Shown: positions 113-8,518 of the stretch, one piece after another | Layout of the letters: every line of letters begins with the position of its first letter | Numbering within the stretch: the first letter of the stretch is position 1 | NCBI GenBank assembly: GCA_021813965.1 | Contig: JAKAJB010000002.1 | Span: 1-32,376, forward strand | Reading direction: 5' to 3' | Origin: a bacterium | Lineage (GTDB): Bacteria > Patescibacteriota > Minisyncoccia > Phycocordibacterales > Phycocordibacteraceae | DNA: 32,376 nucleotides | Notes under the pieces: model-generated | Databases searched by the model: none | Seen by the model: only the letters and a program-made list of their open reading frames with translations | Told to the model about the DNA's origin: nothing | Translations under genes and position numbers: made by a program

Positions 113-130
113 ATTTGCCATACTGCGCGC

Positions 131-214
131 ATGCATTTCACCATCCATACCGACGGGGGCTCAAGAGGGAACCCGGGGCCGGCACCTCATTGCTCTTGTG
201 GCGGTATTTGCTAA
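131..214 (+). pseudogene. truncated duplicate of the rnhA 5' end (27 codons, MHFTIHTDGGSRGNPGPAPHCSCGGIC*)
   Basis: Positions 120-180 are identical to 704-764 (61 bp), which span the -10 region and first codons of rnhA; the frame then diverges and stops at 212-214. Confidence 0.85.
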
Positions 215-268
215 AGTCTGACCGGAAGTTTTACCGCAGCTCAACATCACACTACTAAGGGGGTCTTT

Positions 269-652
269 GTGAAAATCAGAACACTTCTGTGGCTCAAGAA
301 GCATGACATTCGGCTCTTCGGTATTCCGCTGGAACAATTCCAAGAGCGCACCTTTCTCCGGTACATCGCCCCGGCGCGACTGCGCTTACAACTACGGCTC
401 GCTCGGATCGAAATGCGCTTCAACCACGGACACCCGGTGTACTCGTCTCATCCGTGGCTTCAGGTAGATACAGCCGCAGCAAGATATCTGAACGAGAACG
501 AATACTTCCAGTATCACAAACATCGCCACCGTCTTATCAAACGCGCGACACTCCAAGAGCAGGGGTACGACGTATGCAAGCGATTGCGCGCGAAGCCCGG
601 ATGGCTCCGCTTCTCGCGGCCGCTACGATCCGACAAGCACACGGGGTGGTGA
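269..652 (+). CDS. hypothetical protein (127 aa), cargo between duplicated rnhA starts
   Basis: ORF with GTG start, Shine-Dalgarno-like AAGGGGG at 257-263, intrinsic terminator just downstream; no family recognised. Confidence 0.55.
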   Translation: MKIRTLLWLKKHDIRLFGIPLEQFQERTFLRYIAPARLRLQLRLARIEMRFNHGHPVYSSHPWLQVDTAAARYLNENEYFQYHKHRHRLIKRATLQEQGYDVCKRLRAKPGWLRFSRPLRSDKHTGW

Positions 653-668
653 ATCGGGATTTGATTTT

Positions 669-694
669 GCTCGTCCTTCGGGACGAGCTTTTTC
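669..694 (+). terminator. intrinsic terminator
   Basis: GCTCGTCC-TTCG-GGACGAGC followed by TTTTTTC. Confidence 0.85.
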
Positions 695-702
695 TTTGTT
701 GG

Positions 703-708
703 TATACT
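703..708 (+). promoter_or_regulatory. -10 element TATACT 6 nt upstream of rnhA ATG (leaderless-type)
   Basis: TATACT-GCGCGC-ATG. Confidence 0.6.
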
Positions 709-714
709 GCGCGC

Positions 715-1143
715 ATGCATTTCACCATCCATACCGACGGGGGCTCAAGAGGGAACCCGGGGCCTGCCGGCTCAGGCGCGATGATCCGCGACCATCTGGG
801 GAACGCGGTCGCGAGCGTGTCACAATTCCTCGGCATTCGCACCAACAATTACGCCGAATACGAAGCGGTCATCCTCGCATTCGAAATGCTCGCGAAACAT
901 GTCGGGGAGAAGAGAGTCGGCGCGACCGACGTCGAAGTGAAGATGGACAGCGAGCTCATCGTGAAGCAGATGAAGGGAGTATATAAAGTGAAGCACCCGA
1001 CTATGAAAGCCCAGTTCGCGCGAGTCATGAAAGCGAAAGAGGCATTCAAAGAAGTGTCCTTCACGCACGTCCCGCGCGCGCAGAACGCCGACGCCGACGC
1101 CCTCGCGAACGAAGCGATGGATCGCGGTTCGAATCCTAAGTAG
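715..1143 (+). CDS. rnhA: ribonuclease HI family protein
   Basis: MHFTIHTDGGSRGNPGPAGSGAMI...NNYAEYEAV...MDSELIVKQ...ADALANEAMD, RNase HI motifs. Confidence 0.9.
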   Translation: MHFTIHTDGGSRGNPGPAGSGAMIRDHLGNAVASVSQFLGIRTNNYAEYEAVILAFEMLAKHVGEKRVGATDVEVKMDSELIVKQMKGVYKVKHPTMKAQFARVMKAKEAFKEVSFTHVPRAQNADADALANEAMDRGSNPK

Positions 1144-1200
1144 CCAGCCAGTTTTAGATGGATTCGGAGTCCGGCTGATTTCTTTTGCTACGATTTCTGC

Positions 1201-1281
1201 ATGGGTGCACTCATTGCCGTAACGACAGGATTCGCGAGCAGGGTTGGACTCCGCTCGCTTTTTGTCTTTTGTCGTGTATAG
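1201..1281 (+). pseudogene. truncated duplicate of the comEC 5' end (26 codons, MGALIAVTTGFASRVGLRSLFVFCRV*)
   Basis: 1201-1239 matches 1909-1947 with one mismatch; similarity continues at the same offset (708 bp) through 1262. Confidence 0.85.
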
Positions 1282-1376
1282 TTTATATGTGCCTGTGGGG
1301 CGTCAGCCCTATTTCGGCTAATACATAAGCCGAAGGCAGGCATATCAAAACCACCGACCTCGCGTCGGTGTTTTTG
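1277..1376 (+). ncRNA. candidate small structured RNA with promoter and intrinsic terminator
   Basis: -10-like TATAGT (1277-1282); nested stems TGCCTG/CAGGCA, GGGC/GCCC, TTCGGCT/AGCCGAA; terminator CACCGAC-CTCGC-GTCGGTG-TTTTT. Confidence 0.5.
1352..1376 (+). terminator. intrinsic terminator (probably bidirectional)
   Basis: CACCGAC(1352-1358)/GTCGGTG(1364-1370) with a T-tract on the + side and TGGTTTT on the - side. Confidence 0.8.
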
Positions 1377-1379
1377 CTT

Positions 1380-1888
1380 TTAGTCATCCTCCGGGTTGCC
1401 CTTCATCGTGCTGTACAGTTTCATGTCGCGATACTTGTTCGTAGTCCATGCTGGCACGACGCTCCAGAAATGAAGCTGCCCGTTGTCGCCGATCTTCCGC
1501 AAGATCACTTTTATCTTGCGCCCGTCGATGATGGCGATGATGCCCCAATATTTCACCGGCTTACTCTTCCGTACTTTCTTCTTGAAGCTTTTCACTTCGA
1601 ATTCCTTGAGCGTCACTTCGTATTCCTGATATGTCGTAGAAAGCTAGAAAGCTCCGTGAGCCTGATCGCTATCGGCAGAAGCTTGAAGCGCAGTATCTGC
1701 GACGAGCGTTCACGCTCGCTTCGCGGACCCTTGAAAATCACGTGATTGAACCCTTCTGCGGTGAAATGTACGAGCTCGCCAAGCGCCGGGGAGTGGACCG
1801 GTCGCGTGCCGATATAAAACTTCTGCGCATCTTCGCGGAGCTTCTCGTAGTTGGAAACATCTTCCATATCGAAAAAGTGTACACCCAT
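1380..1888 (-). pseudogene. nuclease-like protein (resembles the PBECR / barnase-EndoU-ColicinE5-RelE-like families seen in CPR), frameshifted
   Basis: Two ORFs (1613..1918 and 1380..1616, minus) read as one ~160-aa protein MGVHFFDMEDVSNYEKLREDAQKFY...HFTAEGFNHVIFKG...LPIAIRLTELS/STTYQEYEVTLKEF...YWGIIAIIDGRKIKVILRKIG...HFWSVVPAW...TMKGNPEDD if one copy of an 8-bp tandem repeat is removed; family name is from memory. Confidence 0.6.
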
Positions 1889-1908
1889 CCTTGCGCTACC
1901 ATATACGG

Positions 1909-3528
1909 ATGGGTGCACTCCTTGCCGTAACGACAGGATTCGCGAGCGGGATATTTTTCCGCTCGCTTTTTCATTTCGGGTGGGAACCGGTGGCGTTTAC
2001 GGGATTGCTCGCCGCGCTTCTGGGCGCGGCGGCGTTTATGAAGCCGCGCCGAGTGTACTCGCTCGGCGTGGTGTTCTTTGTGCTCGTCGCCTTCGGGATG
2101 CTGCGCGCAGCAGATGCTGACGCGCCGCTCCCCGACGCCTTCGCGAGCCAAGTGCGGCATCGCGTGTCGTACGACGGGACGGTCGTTGCCGACCCTGATG
2201 TGCGCGATGCCAATCAGCGCGTCGAGATACGTGTCACGAGCGGCGCCGACACGACGACGGTGCTCGCGGTCGCGCCGCGCTACCCGAGCGTCGCAGTGGG
2301 GGATTCGGTGCACGTGTCTGGGACGCTCGAAGTCCCGCAGCCGTTCGCGGGCGACAACGGTCGCGTCTTCCGCTACGACAAATACCTCGAGCGCGACGGC
2401 GTGCGTTTCATACTCAACTTCGCCTATCTGCGCGTGACGCAGAGCGCGCCGTGGTATTCGCCGCCGGCGGCACTCGCGCGCATGAAGCACGCATTCCTCG
2501 ACGGTCTCGCCGCGACGCTTCCCGAACCGTACGCGAGCTTGGCGGGCGGCGTGGTGATAGGAGGGAAGACCGGTCTCGGGAAGGACCTACAGGACGCTTT
2601 CACGCGGAGCGGGCTCGTGCAGATCATCGTCCTCTCCGGCTACAACGTGATGGTCGTCGCCGAGTGGGTCATGGCGGCGCTCGCGTATATCAAACTCTCC
2701 AAGCGGTGGAGCTCGGTGGCAGGAGCGATTGCCATCCTCATCTTCGTCGGCATCGCGGGAGCCTCGGCCACGGCGCTGCGCGCCATGCTCATGGCATTCA
2801 TCGCGCTCTACGCGCGCGCGACCGGGCGCACCTACGCGGCGAGCCGCGCGCTCCTCGCCGCCGTATTCCTTATGCTCCTGTGGAACCCGCTCTACCTCGC
2901 ATACGACCCGGGCTTCGGGCTCTCGGTCGCCGCGACTGCCGGGCTCATCTGGCTCGCGCCAAATATAGAAAGACTGCTCGAAAACGTATCTTTGTGGAGG
3001 CGTATCAAAAAGCCCTCAGATGCGCGACGCGGGGAAGTGATTCCTGTAGGCGTACTACAAGGTACGACGGAAGGAATCACGGGGCCCCGCAACAAAGCAG
3101 ATGGGGCTTTGGGGTATGCCTCGTTCTGGAAGAATGCGATTGCGACAACCCTCGCTGCGCAGATCGCCGTTCTGCCACTCCTCCTCTACGACACCGGCAA
3201 CCTCTCGCTCGTCGCGATACCCGCGAACCTCATCACGATGCCGGTGGTGCCGGCCGCGATGGGGCTGTCTGCGCTCGCCGGGTTCGCTGGGATGCTCTTC
3301 GGCTCTTTCGCGCCGCTCTTCGCCATCGTGCTCGCGTCACCCGCCTACCTCGCGAACGCCTACCTTATATATGTCGCGCAAAAGGCCGCCGAACTTCCGC
3401 TCGCGGCCTTCACGCTTCCGTCATTCCCGTTCTGGCTCGTGCTTCTCGCTTATGCGGCGCTCATCGCAGCCGCGAAGCGCTTCTCGACGACCGGCCAGTT
3501 GAGGTTGGCGAGGAACGCTTCGACGTAA
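1909..3528 (+). CDS. comEC: ComEC/Rec2-family competence membrane protein (without C-terminal MBL domain)
   Basis: SGLVQIIVLSGYNVMVVAEW, ATALRAMLMAFIALYARATGR, multiple TM segments; -10-like TACCAT 6 nt before ATG. Confidence 0.85.
   Translation: MGALLAVTTGFASGIFFRSLFHFGWEPVAFTGLLAALLGAAAFMKPRRVYSLGVVFFVLVAFGMLRAADADAPLPDAFASQVRHRVSYDGTVVADPDVRDANQRVEIRVTSGADTTTVLAVAPRYPSVAVGDSVHVSGTLEVPQPFAGDNGRVFRYDKYLERDGVRFILNFAYLRVTQSAPWYSPPAALARMKHAFLDGLAATLPEPYASLAGGVVIGGKTGLGKDLQDAFTRSGLVQIIVLSGYNVMVVAEWVMAALAYIKLSKRWSSVAGAIAILIFVGIAGASATALRAMLMAFIALYARATGRTYAASRALLAAVFLMLLWNPLYLAYDPGFGLSVAATAGLIWLAPNIERLLENVSLWRRIKKPSDARRGEVIPVGVLQGTTEGITGPRNKADGALGYASFWKNAIATTLAAQIAVLPLLLYDTGNLSLVAIPANLITMPVVPAAMGLSALAGFAGMLFGSFAPLFAIVLASPAYLANAYLIYVAQKAAELPLAAFTLPSFPFWLVLLAYAALIAAAKRFSTTGQLRLARNAST
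3009..3110. repeat. in-frame interrupted palindrome inside comEC
   Basis: AAAGCCC(3009-3015)/GGGCTTT(3104-3110); GCGGGG(3029-3034)/CCCCGC(3085-3090); GTGATTCC(3037-3044)/GGAATCAC(3073-3080); CGTAC(3051-3055)/GTACG(3062-3066); span 102 bp = 34 codons. Confidence 0.6.
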
Positions 3529-4052
3529 TTCTTCTTCTCCGCCGGGACATAGTCCACCATGAAAGCGTGCTCCCAGAGATCGAGCGCGAGTACGATAGGG
3601 AGGCCGGCGAGCTGACCGAGCTCGTGATCATTCACGAACACGGTATGGAGCGTCTTCGCAGTAGGGTCCGCATAGACGATGACCCAGCCGATGCCGCGGC
3701 TGCCGGCGACTTCCTTTATATGTGCGATGAAGTTTTCGGCGCTGCCGTACTTAGCTTCAGCCGCCTGCGCGAGCGAGCTGCCCGCGTCGGGGGCCTGCGC
3801 GGCGCCCTCGAGCTGTTCAAAATAATATTCGTGCATACGCATGCCGTCGAACTCGAAGCCGAAGCGGCGGCGAAGCTCGTTGATGAGGTAGGCGTTGCCC
3901 TCGGCGTCAGCCGCCTTGAGCGCCTGGATCTTCTCCATGATGAGGTTCACGTGCTTCACGTAGCCTTCATAGAGGCCGAGATGCACTTTGATCTGCTTCT
4001 CCGAGAGCCCTTCGAGCACCGGCAGGTTGAATGTTTTTGTTGGGTACGTCAT
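3450..4052 (-). CDS. sodB: superoxide dismutase (Fe/Mn family)
   Basis: KTFNLPVLEGLSEKQIKVHL...MRMHEYYFEQL...DLWEHAFMVDYVPAEKKNYVEAFL. Confidence 0.9.
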   Translation of the reverse strand: MTYPTKTFNLPVLEGLSEKQIKVHLGLYEGYVKHVNLIMEKIQALKAADAEGNAYLINELRRRFGFEFDGMRMHEYYFEQLEGAAQAPDAGSSLAQAAEAKYGSAENFIAHIKEVAGSRGIGWVIVYADPTAKTLHTVFVNDHELGQLAGLPIVLALDLWEHAFMVDYVPAEKKNYVEAFLANLNWPVVEKRFAAAMSAA

Positions 4053-4070
4053 AGAGCTAAAATGTACCAC

Positions 4071-4559
4071 ATGCCGCGACCTTTCTCAGCGGGATTCTAC
4101 ATCATCCTACTTTGCGGCCTCATCATCGCAAATATCGCTGTATATAGGGCCATGCTCGCGCCGCAGGTCCTCACCATGACCGTCTTCGACGTGGGGAAGG
4201 GCGACGCCGCGCTCGTGCACTCGCCCCGGGGACGGACGCTCCTCATCGACACCGGCCCGGATGCGAGCATCCTGCGGGCGCTCGGCGGCGCACTGCAGGA
4301 ATGGGACCGCACGATCGACGCGCTCGTCCTCACCGGCACCAAGGCCGCCTCCGTCGGCGGACTCTCAGATGTCGCTCTCCGCTATCACACACCGGCACCC
4401 GTGCGCTTCGGCGGCAAAGACATTCCCTACGGGACGACCGTCGCTTTCGATGCCGATGTTTCGATAACCGTCATCTCGCCCGGCACATTCGATGTCTCGT
4501 ATGGGACGACTCAGCTATCCGTCTCCTCCTCGACACCGCCCGGAACCTATCCGAAATGA
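4071..4559 (+). CDS. ComEC-type metallo-beta-lactamase-like domain protein, short, degenerate active site
   Basis: TMTVFDVGKGDAALVHSPRGRTLLIDTGPD matches ComEC MBL start; canonical THxHxDH replaced by LTGTKAASVGG. Confidence 0.7.
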   Translation: MPRPFSAGFYIILLCGLIIANIAVYRAMLAPQVLTMTVFDVGKGDAALVHSPRGRTLLIDTGPDASILRALGGALQEWDRTIDALVLTGTKAASVGGLSDVALRYHTPAPVRFGGKDIPYGTTVAFDADVSITVISPGTFDVSYGTTQLSVSSSTPPGTYPK

Positions 4560-5573: not shown

Positions 5574-6020
5574 ATGGAGTACCAGGTACCGCAGTTCATC
5601 GAGGTCGAGGATAAGATCATCGGCCCGCTGACCTTAAAGCAGTTCATCTACCTCGCCGGTGCAGCCGGACTCGTCGTCGTATTCTTCTCCTACCTGCCTT
5701 TCATCGTCGCCGTCCTATTTTCCATCCCGGTCGCCGGGCTCGGCGCAGCGCTCGCATTCTATAAGGTAAACGGAAAATCTTTCGTGGAAATGCTCGAAGC
5801 GGGCTTCAATTATTACACCGGCAAGAAGCTCCTTCTTTGGAAATACACTGCTCCGACGGCGCAGGAGACGAGCGCGGCAGCGTCTGCGGCCGCGGCCGCA
5901 GACGCTGCCGCGCGGCCCGTGCGAGGCGCACCACGCCTCACGAGCGGGAAGCTCTCGGAACTCGCCTGGTCGCTTGACGTGAAGTCCTCGAGCAGCGAGA
6001 CGCCGAGACGAGCCGCATAA
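5574..6020 (+). CDS. PrgI-family protein (T4SS-like cluster)
   Basis: MEYQVPQFIEVEDKIIGPLTLKQFIYLAGAAG...; located before VirB4-like genes; TATACT 7 nt before ATG. Confidence 0.8.
   Translation: MEYQVPQFIEVEDKIIGPLTLKQFIYLAGAAGLVVVFFSYLPFIVAVLFSIPVAGLGAALAFYKVNGKSFVEMLEAGFNYYTGKKLLLWKYTAPTAQETSAAASAAAAADAAARPVRGAPRLTSGKLSELAWSLDVKSSSSETPRRAA
5872..5913. repeat. perfect 42-bp palindrome in prgI-like coding sequence
   Basis: GCGCGGCAGCGTCTGCGGCCGCGGCCGCAGACGCTGCCGCGC equals its own reverse complement. Confidence 0.95.
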
Positions 6021-6025
6021 ACACT

Positions 6026-6664
6026 ATGCCGAACACCGCACAAGCAGGGAAAACGCAGCAATTCGTCCCCATAAAAGAAATACGAAACGGCACCATCGTC
6101 CTGAAAGACGGCGGCTACCGCGGCATACTTATCTGCTCCGCAATCAACTTCGGGCTCAAATCGGCCGAAGAACAGCACGGCATCATCCTCGGCTTCCAGA
6201 ACTTCCTCAACACGCTCGATTTCTCTATACAGATCGTCATCAATTCACGCCGCATGGACCTGCGCCCGTACCTTGCGCTCCTCCAAGAGAAGATGCCGGA
6301 CCAGAAAACCGAACTTATGCGCATCCAACTGCGCGAGTACATCGAATTCATCGGTTCGTTCGCCGAGCAGACGAACATCATGACTAAGTCGTTCTATATC
6401 GTCGTCTCCTACGCGCCGCATGTGACTGCCGCCGGCGCGGTGAGCTTCTTGCGCCAGGGAAGTGCGGCCACGAAGAGCGCAGCCGATGAAGCGTCCTTCG
6501 AAGAGGACCAGGCGCAGCTCGAGCAGCGTCTCTCACTCGTCGCTGCCGGGCTCGCAGGCACGGGCGTACGCGCCGTCCCGCTCGGCACCGAAGAAGTCAT
6601 CGAGCTTCTCTATCGCTCCTTCAACCCGGGCGAGCTTGAGAACCCTATCCGCCTTGAGGCATGA
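6026..6664 (+). CDS. TraC/VirB4 N-terminal-like T4SS-associated protein
   Basis: QFVPIKEIRNGTIVLKDGGYRGILICSAINFGLKSAEEQHGIILGFQNFLNTLDFSIQI; precedes VirB4-like ATPase. Confidence 0.7.
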   Translation: MPNTAQAGKTQQFVPIKEIRNGTIVLKDGGYRGILICSAINFGLKSAEEQHGIILGFQNFLNTLDFSIQIVINSRRMDLRPYLALLQEKMPDQKTELMRIQLREYIEFIGSFAEQTNIMTKSFYIVVSYAPHVTAAGAVSFLRQGSAATKSAADEASFEEDQAQLEQRLSLVAAGLAGTGVRAVPLGTEEVIELLYRSFNPGELENPIRLEA

Positions 6665-6697: not shown

Positions 6698-8518
6698 ATG
6701 GCACTCCTCGACTTCCTCAGCCGCAAACAGAAAGAAGAAGCTCCGGCGATCACGCCGGTGCTGCCGCGGGATATCTACCGGCAGAGTTCGCTCGATCTCG
6801 TCGATACTATCGCTCCGACCGCGCTCAAGATAGGCTCGCGCGAGCTTGAGCTCGGCGAGAAATTCGTCCGCACCTTCTACACCGTCTCGTATCCGCGTTT
6901 CCTCTCTGACAGCTGGTTCTCGCCGGTCATCGATCTCGACAAAGTGCTCGATGTTTCCATCTTCATCCATCCGGTCGAAACCGAGACCGCACTTCGCAGC
7001 TTCCAGAAAAAGGTCGCCGAGGTCCAGAGCCAGATCAATGAGCGCGAGGCGAAAGGGCTCGTGCGCGACCCGCTCCTGGATACGGCCTACCAGGATCTCG
7101 AGGCCCTGCGCGACAACCTGCAGCAAGCGCAAGAGAAGCTCTTCGACGTAGGTCTCTACCTCGCGCTCTACGGCGACACGAAGGAGGAGATAGCGAAGAC
7201 CGAGGGAGACATCCGCGGCATCCTCGATGCGAAGCTCGTCTATACCAAACCCGCCCTGTTCCAGCAGGAGCAGGGATTCCGCTCGTGCCTCCCGCTCGGA
7301 AGCGACGAATTGCTGGTCAATTCGAAGCTGAATTCCTCGCCGCTCTCGTCCATCTTCCCGTTCGTCTCTTTCGACCTCACGAGCGACCGCGGCATCCTCT
7401 ACGGCATCAACCGCCACAACTCTTCGCTCATCCTCTTCGACCGCTTCTCGCTCGAGAACTACAACTCCGTCGTCTTCGCGAAATCCGGCTCCGGCAAGAG
7501 CTATGCGACCAAGCTCGAAATCCTTCGTTCGCTCATGTTCGGCACGGACGTCATCGTCATCGACCCGGAACGCGAATACGAGCAGCTCGCCGAGGCGACG
7601 GGCGGACGCTCGTTCAACATCTCTCTTTCCTCAGAGAACCACATCAACCCGTTCGACCTCCCGCCGGTGCGGGAAGACGAAGACCCGAAAGACATCCTGC
7701 GCTCCAATATCATCTCGCTCGTCGGCCTCTTCCGCATCATGCTCGGCGGTCTCTCTCCGGAAGAAGACGCTATCGTCGATCGCGCCATCAGCGAGACATA
7801 CGCGCTCAAAGACATCACCGGCGAATCCGATTTCACCGGCGCCGAATCGCCCCTTCTCTCCGATTTCGAGCAGGTGCTCTCCGGCATGGAAGGAAGCGAG
7901 TCCCTGATTGAGCGCCTTTCCAAATACACCCGCGGCACGTGGTCCGGATTCATGAACCAGCCGACCAATATCGACCTCAAGCAGCAGTTCGCGGTATTCT
8001 CCGTGCGCGACATGGAAGACGAGCTGAAGCCGGTCGCTATGTACATCATCACGCACTATATCTGGAACGCCGTGCGCCATGAGATGAAGAAGCGTCTCCT
8101 CATCATCGACGAGGCGTGGTGGATGATGAAGAGCGATGACACCGCCTCATTCCTCTACTCGCTCGCGAAGCGCGGCCGCAAATACTACCTCGGCGTCTGC
8201 ACCATCACGCAGGACGTCGAAGACTTCCTCAAGAGCCCGTACGGCCGCCCGATCCTCACGAACTCCTCGCTGCAGCTGCTTTTGAAGCAGTCGCCGACGA
8301 CCATCGATGTGCTCCAGAAGACGTTCAACCTCACCGACGAAGAGAAATACCTCCTCCTCGAGGCCGGGGTGGGGGAGGGGCTCTTCTTCGCCGGATTGAA
8401 GCACGTCGCCATCAAGGTCGTCGCGAGCTACACGGAAGATCAGATCATCACCTCCGACCCCTCGCAGCTCATGGCGATAAAGCAGGAAAAGAGCCGCTAT
8501 GCCGCCGAGCAGAAGTAG
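6698..8518 (+). CDS. VirB4-like type IV secretion ATPase
   Basis: Walker A FAKSGSGKSYATKLEILRS, Walker B LLIIDEAWWMM, downstream TITQDVEDFL. Confidence 0.92.
   Translation: MALLDFLSRKQKEEAPAITPVLPRDIYRQSSLDLVDTIAPTALKIGSRELELGEKFVRTFYTVSYPRFLSDSWFSPVIDLDKVLDVSIFIHPVETETALRSFQKKVAEVQSQINEREAKGLVRDPLLDTAYQDLEALRDNLQQAQEKLFDVGLYLALYGDTKEEIAKTEGDIRGILDAKLVYTKPALFQQEQGFRSCLPLGSDELLVNSKLNSSPLSSIFPFVSFDLTSDRGILYGINRHNSSLILFDRFSLENYNSVVFAKSGSGKSYATKLEILRSLMFGTDVIVIDPEREYEQLAEATGGRSFNISLSSENHINPFDLPPVREDEDPKDILRSNIISLVGLFRIMLGGLSPEEDAIVDRAISETYALKDITGESDFTGAESPLLSDFEQVLSGMEGSESLIERLSKYTRGTWSGFMNQPTNIDLKQQFAVFSVRDMEDELKPVAMYIITHYIWNAVRHEMKKRLLIIDEAWWMMKSDDTASFLYSLAKRGRKYYLGVCTITQDVEDFLKSPYGRPILTNSSLQLLLKQSPTTIDVLQKTFNLTDEEKYLLLEAGVGEGLFFAGLKHVAIKVVASYTEDQIITSDPSQLMAIKQEKSRYAAEQK

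Follow-up and report, generated by a model that had tools for sequence, protein, structure and literature searches.

Repeated starts of rnhA and comEC

The window, a stretch of 32,376 bp, is a complete contig of a metagenome bin (labelled G000; 565 kb, 60 contigs, 93.5% complete). Genomes labelled Ca. Kaiserbacteria and Ca. Paceibacterota are among the relatives of the bin, and the host is an uncultured tiny bacterium of the Ca. Kaiserbacteria type. Near one end of the window, rnhA and comEC are each preceded by a truncated copy of their own start and by intervening genes, referred to here as cargo:

84-112, + strand: terminator-like hairpin of whatever precedes the truncated rnhA (-13.7 kcal/mol, z -2.9)
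115-183, + strand: truncated rnhA, with the -10 region and the first ~50 coding nt (ATG at 131; 61/61 to 704-764; profile E 8e-14)
187-230, + strand: promoter/leader of a 127-aa ORF, immediately 3' of the truncated rnhA (37/44 identical to the region upstream of the homologue in genome G042)
269-652, + strand: cargo 1, the 127-aa ORF (with a homologue in G042 at the same position between recJ and rnhA)
667-690, + strand: terminator-like hairpin 3' of cargo 1 (z -5.3)
715-1143, + strand: intact rnhA (RNase H; RVT_3, E 3e-20)
1182-1269, + strand: truncated comEC, with the promoter, the first ~69 coding nt, hairpin and T-run (ATG at 1201; profile E 1.7e-11)
1289-1378, + strand: cargo 2a, a structured ncRNA with its own terminator (z -6.1; no family in an Rfam search)
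1380-1888, - strand: cargo 2b, a protein-coding gene in convergent orientation to the ncRNA (disrupted by a frameshift in the window; relatives have it intact, at ~160 aa)
1909-3528, + strand: intact comEC (Competence, E 1e-43; terminator-like hairpin at ~1940-1965, z -4.95)

Alignment confirmed both of the repeats that a sequence-only reading had reported. The rnhA start occurs at 120-180 and again at 704-764 (61/61 nt identical, spacing 584; 96% identity over a wider 69 nt), and the comEC start at 1201-1239 and 1909-1947 (38/39 identical, spacing 708; 82% over a wider 82 nt), the latter repeat taking in a terminator-like hairpin. The lengths given for the peptides encoded by the truncated copies, 27 aa for rnhA and 26 aa for comEC, are also correct; these putative products are what truncation gives. 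Both ATGs are preceded, at a distance of 6 nt, by a -10-like hexamer (CATACT-gcgcgc-ATG and TACGAT-ttctgc-ATG). It is present at the truncated copies, as had been claimed, but it is not a trait of the cassettes, being normal for both genes across the genus. This placement is consistent with leaderless rnhA and comEC mRNAs; within the literature covered, searches found neither leaderless transcription in Patescibacteria nor the same gene-start arrangement.

Cargo 1 matched no family in Pfam, NCBIfam or PADLOC. Its homologue in G042, the sister genome of G000, is 42% identical and lies at the same recJ-rnhA site without a truncated rnhA. The 44 nt that follow the truncated rnhA in the window were considered as a scar of the recJ 3' end, a candidate that was rejected because they match the promoter region of the G042 homologue; the join is thus with the cargo promoter, not with the recJ end. 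Cargo 2b is split by its frameshift into ORFs at 1613-1888 and 1380-1616 on the minus strand, and its earlier description as nuclease-like was dropped, since no family match supports it (Pfam LPD3 at E=0.061, below the cut-off; other searches empty). At the join of the truncated comEC with the ncRNA module only a few bases are shared (CG-GTG / CGTG), as judged by eye. The intact comEC of the window also contains an imperfect palindromic repeat in frame (~37 aa, ~3016-3112). Similar copies occur on G000 contigs C13 (three copies) and C20 as well as in G071, and the comEC of G012 carries the same in-frame insertion. This may be a REP-like repeat, Y1 transposases being encoded in the genome (two genes in the bin).

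A scan of 1.95 Mb of the clade (1,892 ORFs) found 16 direct gene-start repeats scoring >=44 against 0 in the inverted control, about 10 of the 16 being repeat-rich ORFs, and 13 direct against 2 inverted gene-end repeats, many of the direct ones again in repeat-rich ORFs. These counts are lower bounds, as the window's own pair was missed (the longest ORF starts upstream of rnhA, and the second repeat falls outside the settings). The gene-start repeats are not due to chance. Twenty further stretches of G000 contigs held no convincing additional case, and gene-start duplication as a general trait of this genome was rejected. An assembly artefact of a mixed population would fit a bin of 60 contigs in which recJ was not found and a window that starts 119 nt before the truncated rnhA repeat; but genomes assembled independently show such scars too, each join sequence is unique, and a repeat of 61 nt is shorter than the usual read length. 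We regard such an artefact as extremely improbable.

Filled junctions and scars in relatives

The junctions of the recJ-rnhA-comEC row have repeatedly been opened by added cargo genes in this genus. In the packed state the rnhA stop and the comEC ATG often overlap by 4 nt in relatives, and recJ ends 7-8 nt before rnhA, with its stop inside the rnhA -10. At the 43 related loci where both rnhA and comEC could be placed, 20 junctions between them are packed (gap <=70 nt) and 23 are filled (up to 2.9 kb), counts that are approximate because two of the entries come from genomes already listed with another locus. Empty sites, which the sequence-only reading suggested looking for, therefore exist in the packed junctions, and the variability of cargo that it described extends to relatives, whose filled junctions hold unrelated genes (ASCH, NUDIX, CYTH, an AAA_18 kinase and many proteins without a family). 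G042 has a different rnhA-comEC cargo and no truncated comEC, and many filled junctions are without any scar, that is, without a truncated gene start or end.

Profile searches showed that truncated starts of both genes recur in relatives. With the comEC-start profile, a truncated comEC was found between rnhA and intact comEC in seven genomes, ending (profile position minus 15) at about coding nt 69 in G000, 75 in G046, 66 in G050/51, 61 in G066, 44 in G071, 69 in G080 and 65 in G085, hence at about 61-75 in six of the seven. G000 and G046 are collinear, with common cargo and join, while G066 and G080 have a common variant of the truncated start and an upstream ASCH gene; judged from these sequences, about five origins are likely. 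The truncated copies are scattered on the comEC tree (seven changes are needed for the seven rows, of which well-supported branches force at least four; many inner branches are weak). A truncated rnhA occurs in two genomes, once in G000 and twice in G071, where both copies are fused to a piece of the recJ 3' end in near-identical 72-nt units; this rnhA/recJ-end join matches G048 at about 32/35. Pattern scans of 105 genomes revealed no rnhA or comEC scar away from its own gene.

The two fusions of G071 are the head-to-tail join expected if the whole junction was duplicated in tandem in one lineage and the cargo of one copy was later lost, diverged or exchanged, and the 61/61 identity of the window's two rnhA starts points in the same direction. 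However, neighbouring copies hold unrelated cargo, the window join is with a cargo promoter rather than the recJ end, and the comEC starts of G046 and G050 have diverged considerably between the truncated and the intact copy. Plain tandem duplication therefore appears unlikely as the general explanation.

Gene ends are affected as well. The last ~42 nt of rnhA are repeated downstream of intact rnhA in four genomes (G080, G068, G071 and G012); the repeat has the same starting point in all four, a conserved segment ~42 nt ahead of the stop, and in three it is in frame with the C-terminus of the cargo. Clear end scars are also present for SOD (G065) and, in G071, for an RNase R-like gene together with another one that flanks a Y1 transposase. 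In L140 the 3' end of SOD is duplicated (minus strand, 6017-6070 and 8372-8425) with the two copies enclosing a 2.3-kb insert that contains a peptidase-like ORF, and this scar is antisense to the C-terminal codons of comEC. In L202 of G071 (2870-4260) a Y1 (IS200/RAYT-like) transposase gene has palindromes on either side and is bordered by 3'-end scars of the two convergent neighbour genes.

The ncRNA and protein module, or its RNA part, was found at different loci in G024, G061, G068, G006, G046, G087, G032 and G072, with 90-97% identity over most of the RNA. The structured ncRNA (window module at 1275-1888; L298, L299, L300-L305) has 26 consensus pairs, 5 of them with double changes. In most genomes that have it, the ncRNA is paired with the convergent ~160-aa protein gene, and distant forms adjoin ~36%-identical proteins; the two are a candidate RNA-protein mobile module, perhaps of a toxin-antitoxin-like kind. 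No relatives of the cargo were found in viral contigs. Only in G000 and G046 do comEC starts surround the module, and at least seven other module loci showed no flanking repeats comparable to the start duplication, so that cargo beside other gene starts with matching duplications, a further prediction of the sequence-only reading, was not found.

These observations bear on the small mobile or homing-like unit, entering at gene 5' ends with a replacement start, that the same reading had favoured. Repeated targeting of the same genes with different cargo and the clustering of breakpoints would suit such a unit. Against it, cargo occurs elsewhere without start duplication (the module loci, and the cargo 1 homologue of G042 without a truncated rnhA), 3'-end scars exist too, and no scar was found away from its own gene in the pattern scans of 105 genomes. 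Furthermore, neither tyrosine (PF00589) nor serine recombinases (PF00239) had any match in the bin, although control genomes do match, an absence that is not proof in a bin 93.5% complete. We consider the unit very improbable. With no PF00589 match, no XerC/D-like protein was detected in the bin either, for which incompleteness may account.

A hairpin in the first codons of comEC

The hairpin within the comEC repeat scores z -4.95 in the intact gene (window 1930-1983) and z -3.4 in the truncated copy. Across 42 comEC starts, the hairpin is more stable than synonymous recodings (mean z -2.15; z<-2 in 25/42, compared with 25/218 control windows), and the hairpin is commoner at filled (17/23) than at packed (6/19) rnhA-comEC junctions (Fisher p=0.012, uncorrected for relatedness). 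This suggests that the hairpin may terminate upstream transcripts. Among the truncated copies, it is intact in G000, G046 and G050, degraded in G066, G080 and G085, and without its second arm in G071. Universal retention of a terminator hairpin in the truncated copies was accordingly rejected, and terminator retention explains only part of the breakpoint clustering, since just three copies are intact.

The hairpin is a near-perfect dyad that the breakpoints adjoin, and the repeated rnhA ends always begin at the same conserved segment, as might be expected of site-specific recombination at this dyad or at other conserved gene-end sequences, with a recombinase acting in trans. No core common to the comEC start, rnhA start and rnhA end was seen by eye, however, the bin has no PF00589 or PF00239 match, and many filled junctions are scarless, which makes such recombination quite improbable.

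Proposed recombination at overlapping gene boundaries

The best-supported explanation, which we put at about even odds, is that the over-packed recJ-rnhA-comEC row is an insertion hotspot filled by recombination, which leaves boundary scars of 40-75 nt. New DNA would most likely enter by RecA-type recombination with the DNA of relatives, one side being homologous, inside the intact gene, and the other non-homologous; RecA is encoded in the bin (E 1e-133). Since neighbouring genes overlap, the upstream gene would be spared only by joins located within the old copy of the downstream gene, and these would leave a truncated start of 40-75 nt before the cargo, whereas the mirror event would leave a truncated 3' end. 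The comEC scar usually reaches just past the position of the hairpin and T-run, and where the hairpin is intact (G000, G046 and G050) it might conceivably persist as a terminator of the upstream transcript. Tandem duplication of the whole junction with later divergence of the cargo would be a sub-case that fits rnhA in G071.

The right side of each insert is the intact gene, rnhA or comEC, in which donor and recipient segments are indistinguishable. Against the recombination explanation, the breakpoints are more tightly clustered than would be expected of random joins, and no donor sequence was identified for any specific event; nor does it account for the 40-75-nt depth of the joins or for the three in-frame end scars. 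The process would be either homology-facilitated illegitimate recombination (HFIR) or a transformation-driven tandem duplication, with natural transformation as the presumed source of DNA; comEC is present in the bin, and competence activity of the clade is assumed.

HFIR, as outlined in PMC3240628, attaches one side of the foreign DNA through homology and the other through an illegitimate join, and a partial duplicate of the recipient gene would similarly remain next to the insert. Here, by contrast, it is deduced from scars alone, and HFIR does not predict joins clustered 40-75 nt inside genes. In merodiploids formed by transformation of Streptococcus pneumoniae, recombination with donor DNA likewise adds a tandem copy instead of replacing one (PMC3784515), but those duplications use repeats such as an IS element, whereas the present units are ~0.15-3 kb with gene-end repeats of 40-75 nt. 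The arrangement also has parallels among mobile elements. Integrative elements that restore the end of their target gene are known for tRNA and protein-gene targets, and their cargo is similarly flanked by truncated and intact copies of the gene end. They differ from the present case, where no integrase lies in the insert or was found in the bin, the cargo is of one or two genes, and cargo occurs elsewhere without the gene end. Integron cassettes are likewise small, single-gene cargo added serially at one locus, but no IntI-type tyrosine recombinase was found in the bin and a casual look at the unrelated cargo noticed no recurrent attC-like site.

A broader proposal, which we consider unlikely, has two parts. 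Gene boundaries of this clade would serve general, integrase-free stacking of cargo, with conserved starts and ends as recombination anchors and with serial addition of units that each combine cargo with 40-75 nt of a gene end. The first codons of comEC would double as a terminator for the upstream gene, left open for the apparently leaderless comEC mRNA because its translating ribosomes prevent the hairpin. To our knowledge, no insulator of this kind has been described in compact genomes, and with the comEC hairpin the idea that a terminator can be concealed within the coding start of the following gene becomes testable.

A 2025 survey described horizontal transfers and genomic islands in Patescibacteria and suggested natural competence as one route (PMC12455944). 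Many Patescibacteria have tiny genomes and yet gain genes, and in the present bin neither a tyrosine nor a serine recombinase was detectable. At a single conserved locus linked to competence, scars whose joins can be read provide a natural record of the gain and loss of cargo and show which joins selection tolerates where genes overlap. A start scar is also present in L153, from another Patescibacteria genome, where the lepA start occurs at 5684-5723 and 5835-5874 (37 nt identical, 151 nt apart) and the two copies surround a small hairpin-rich segment.
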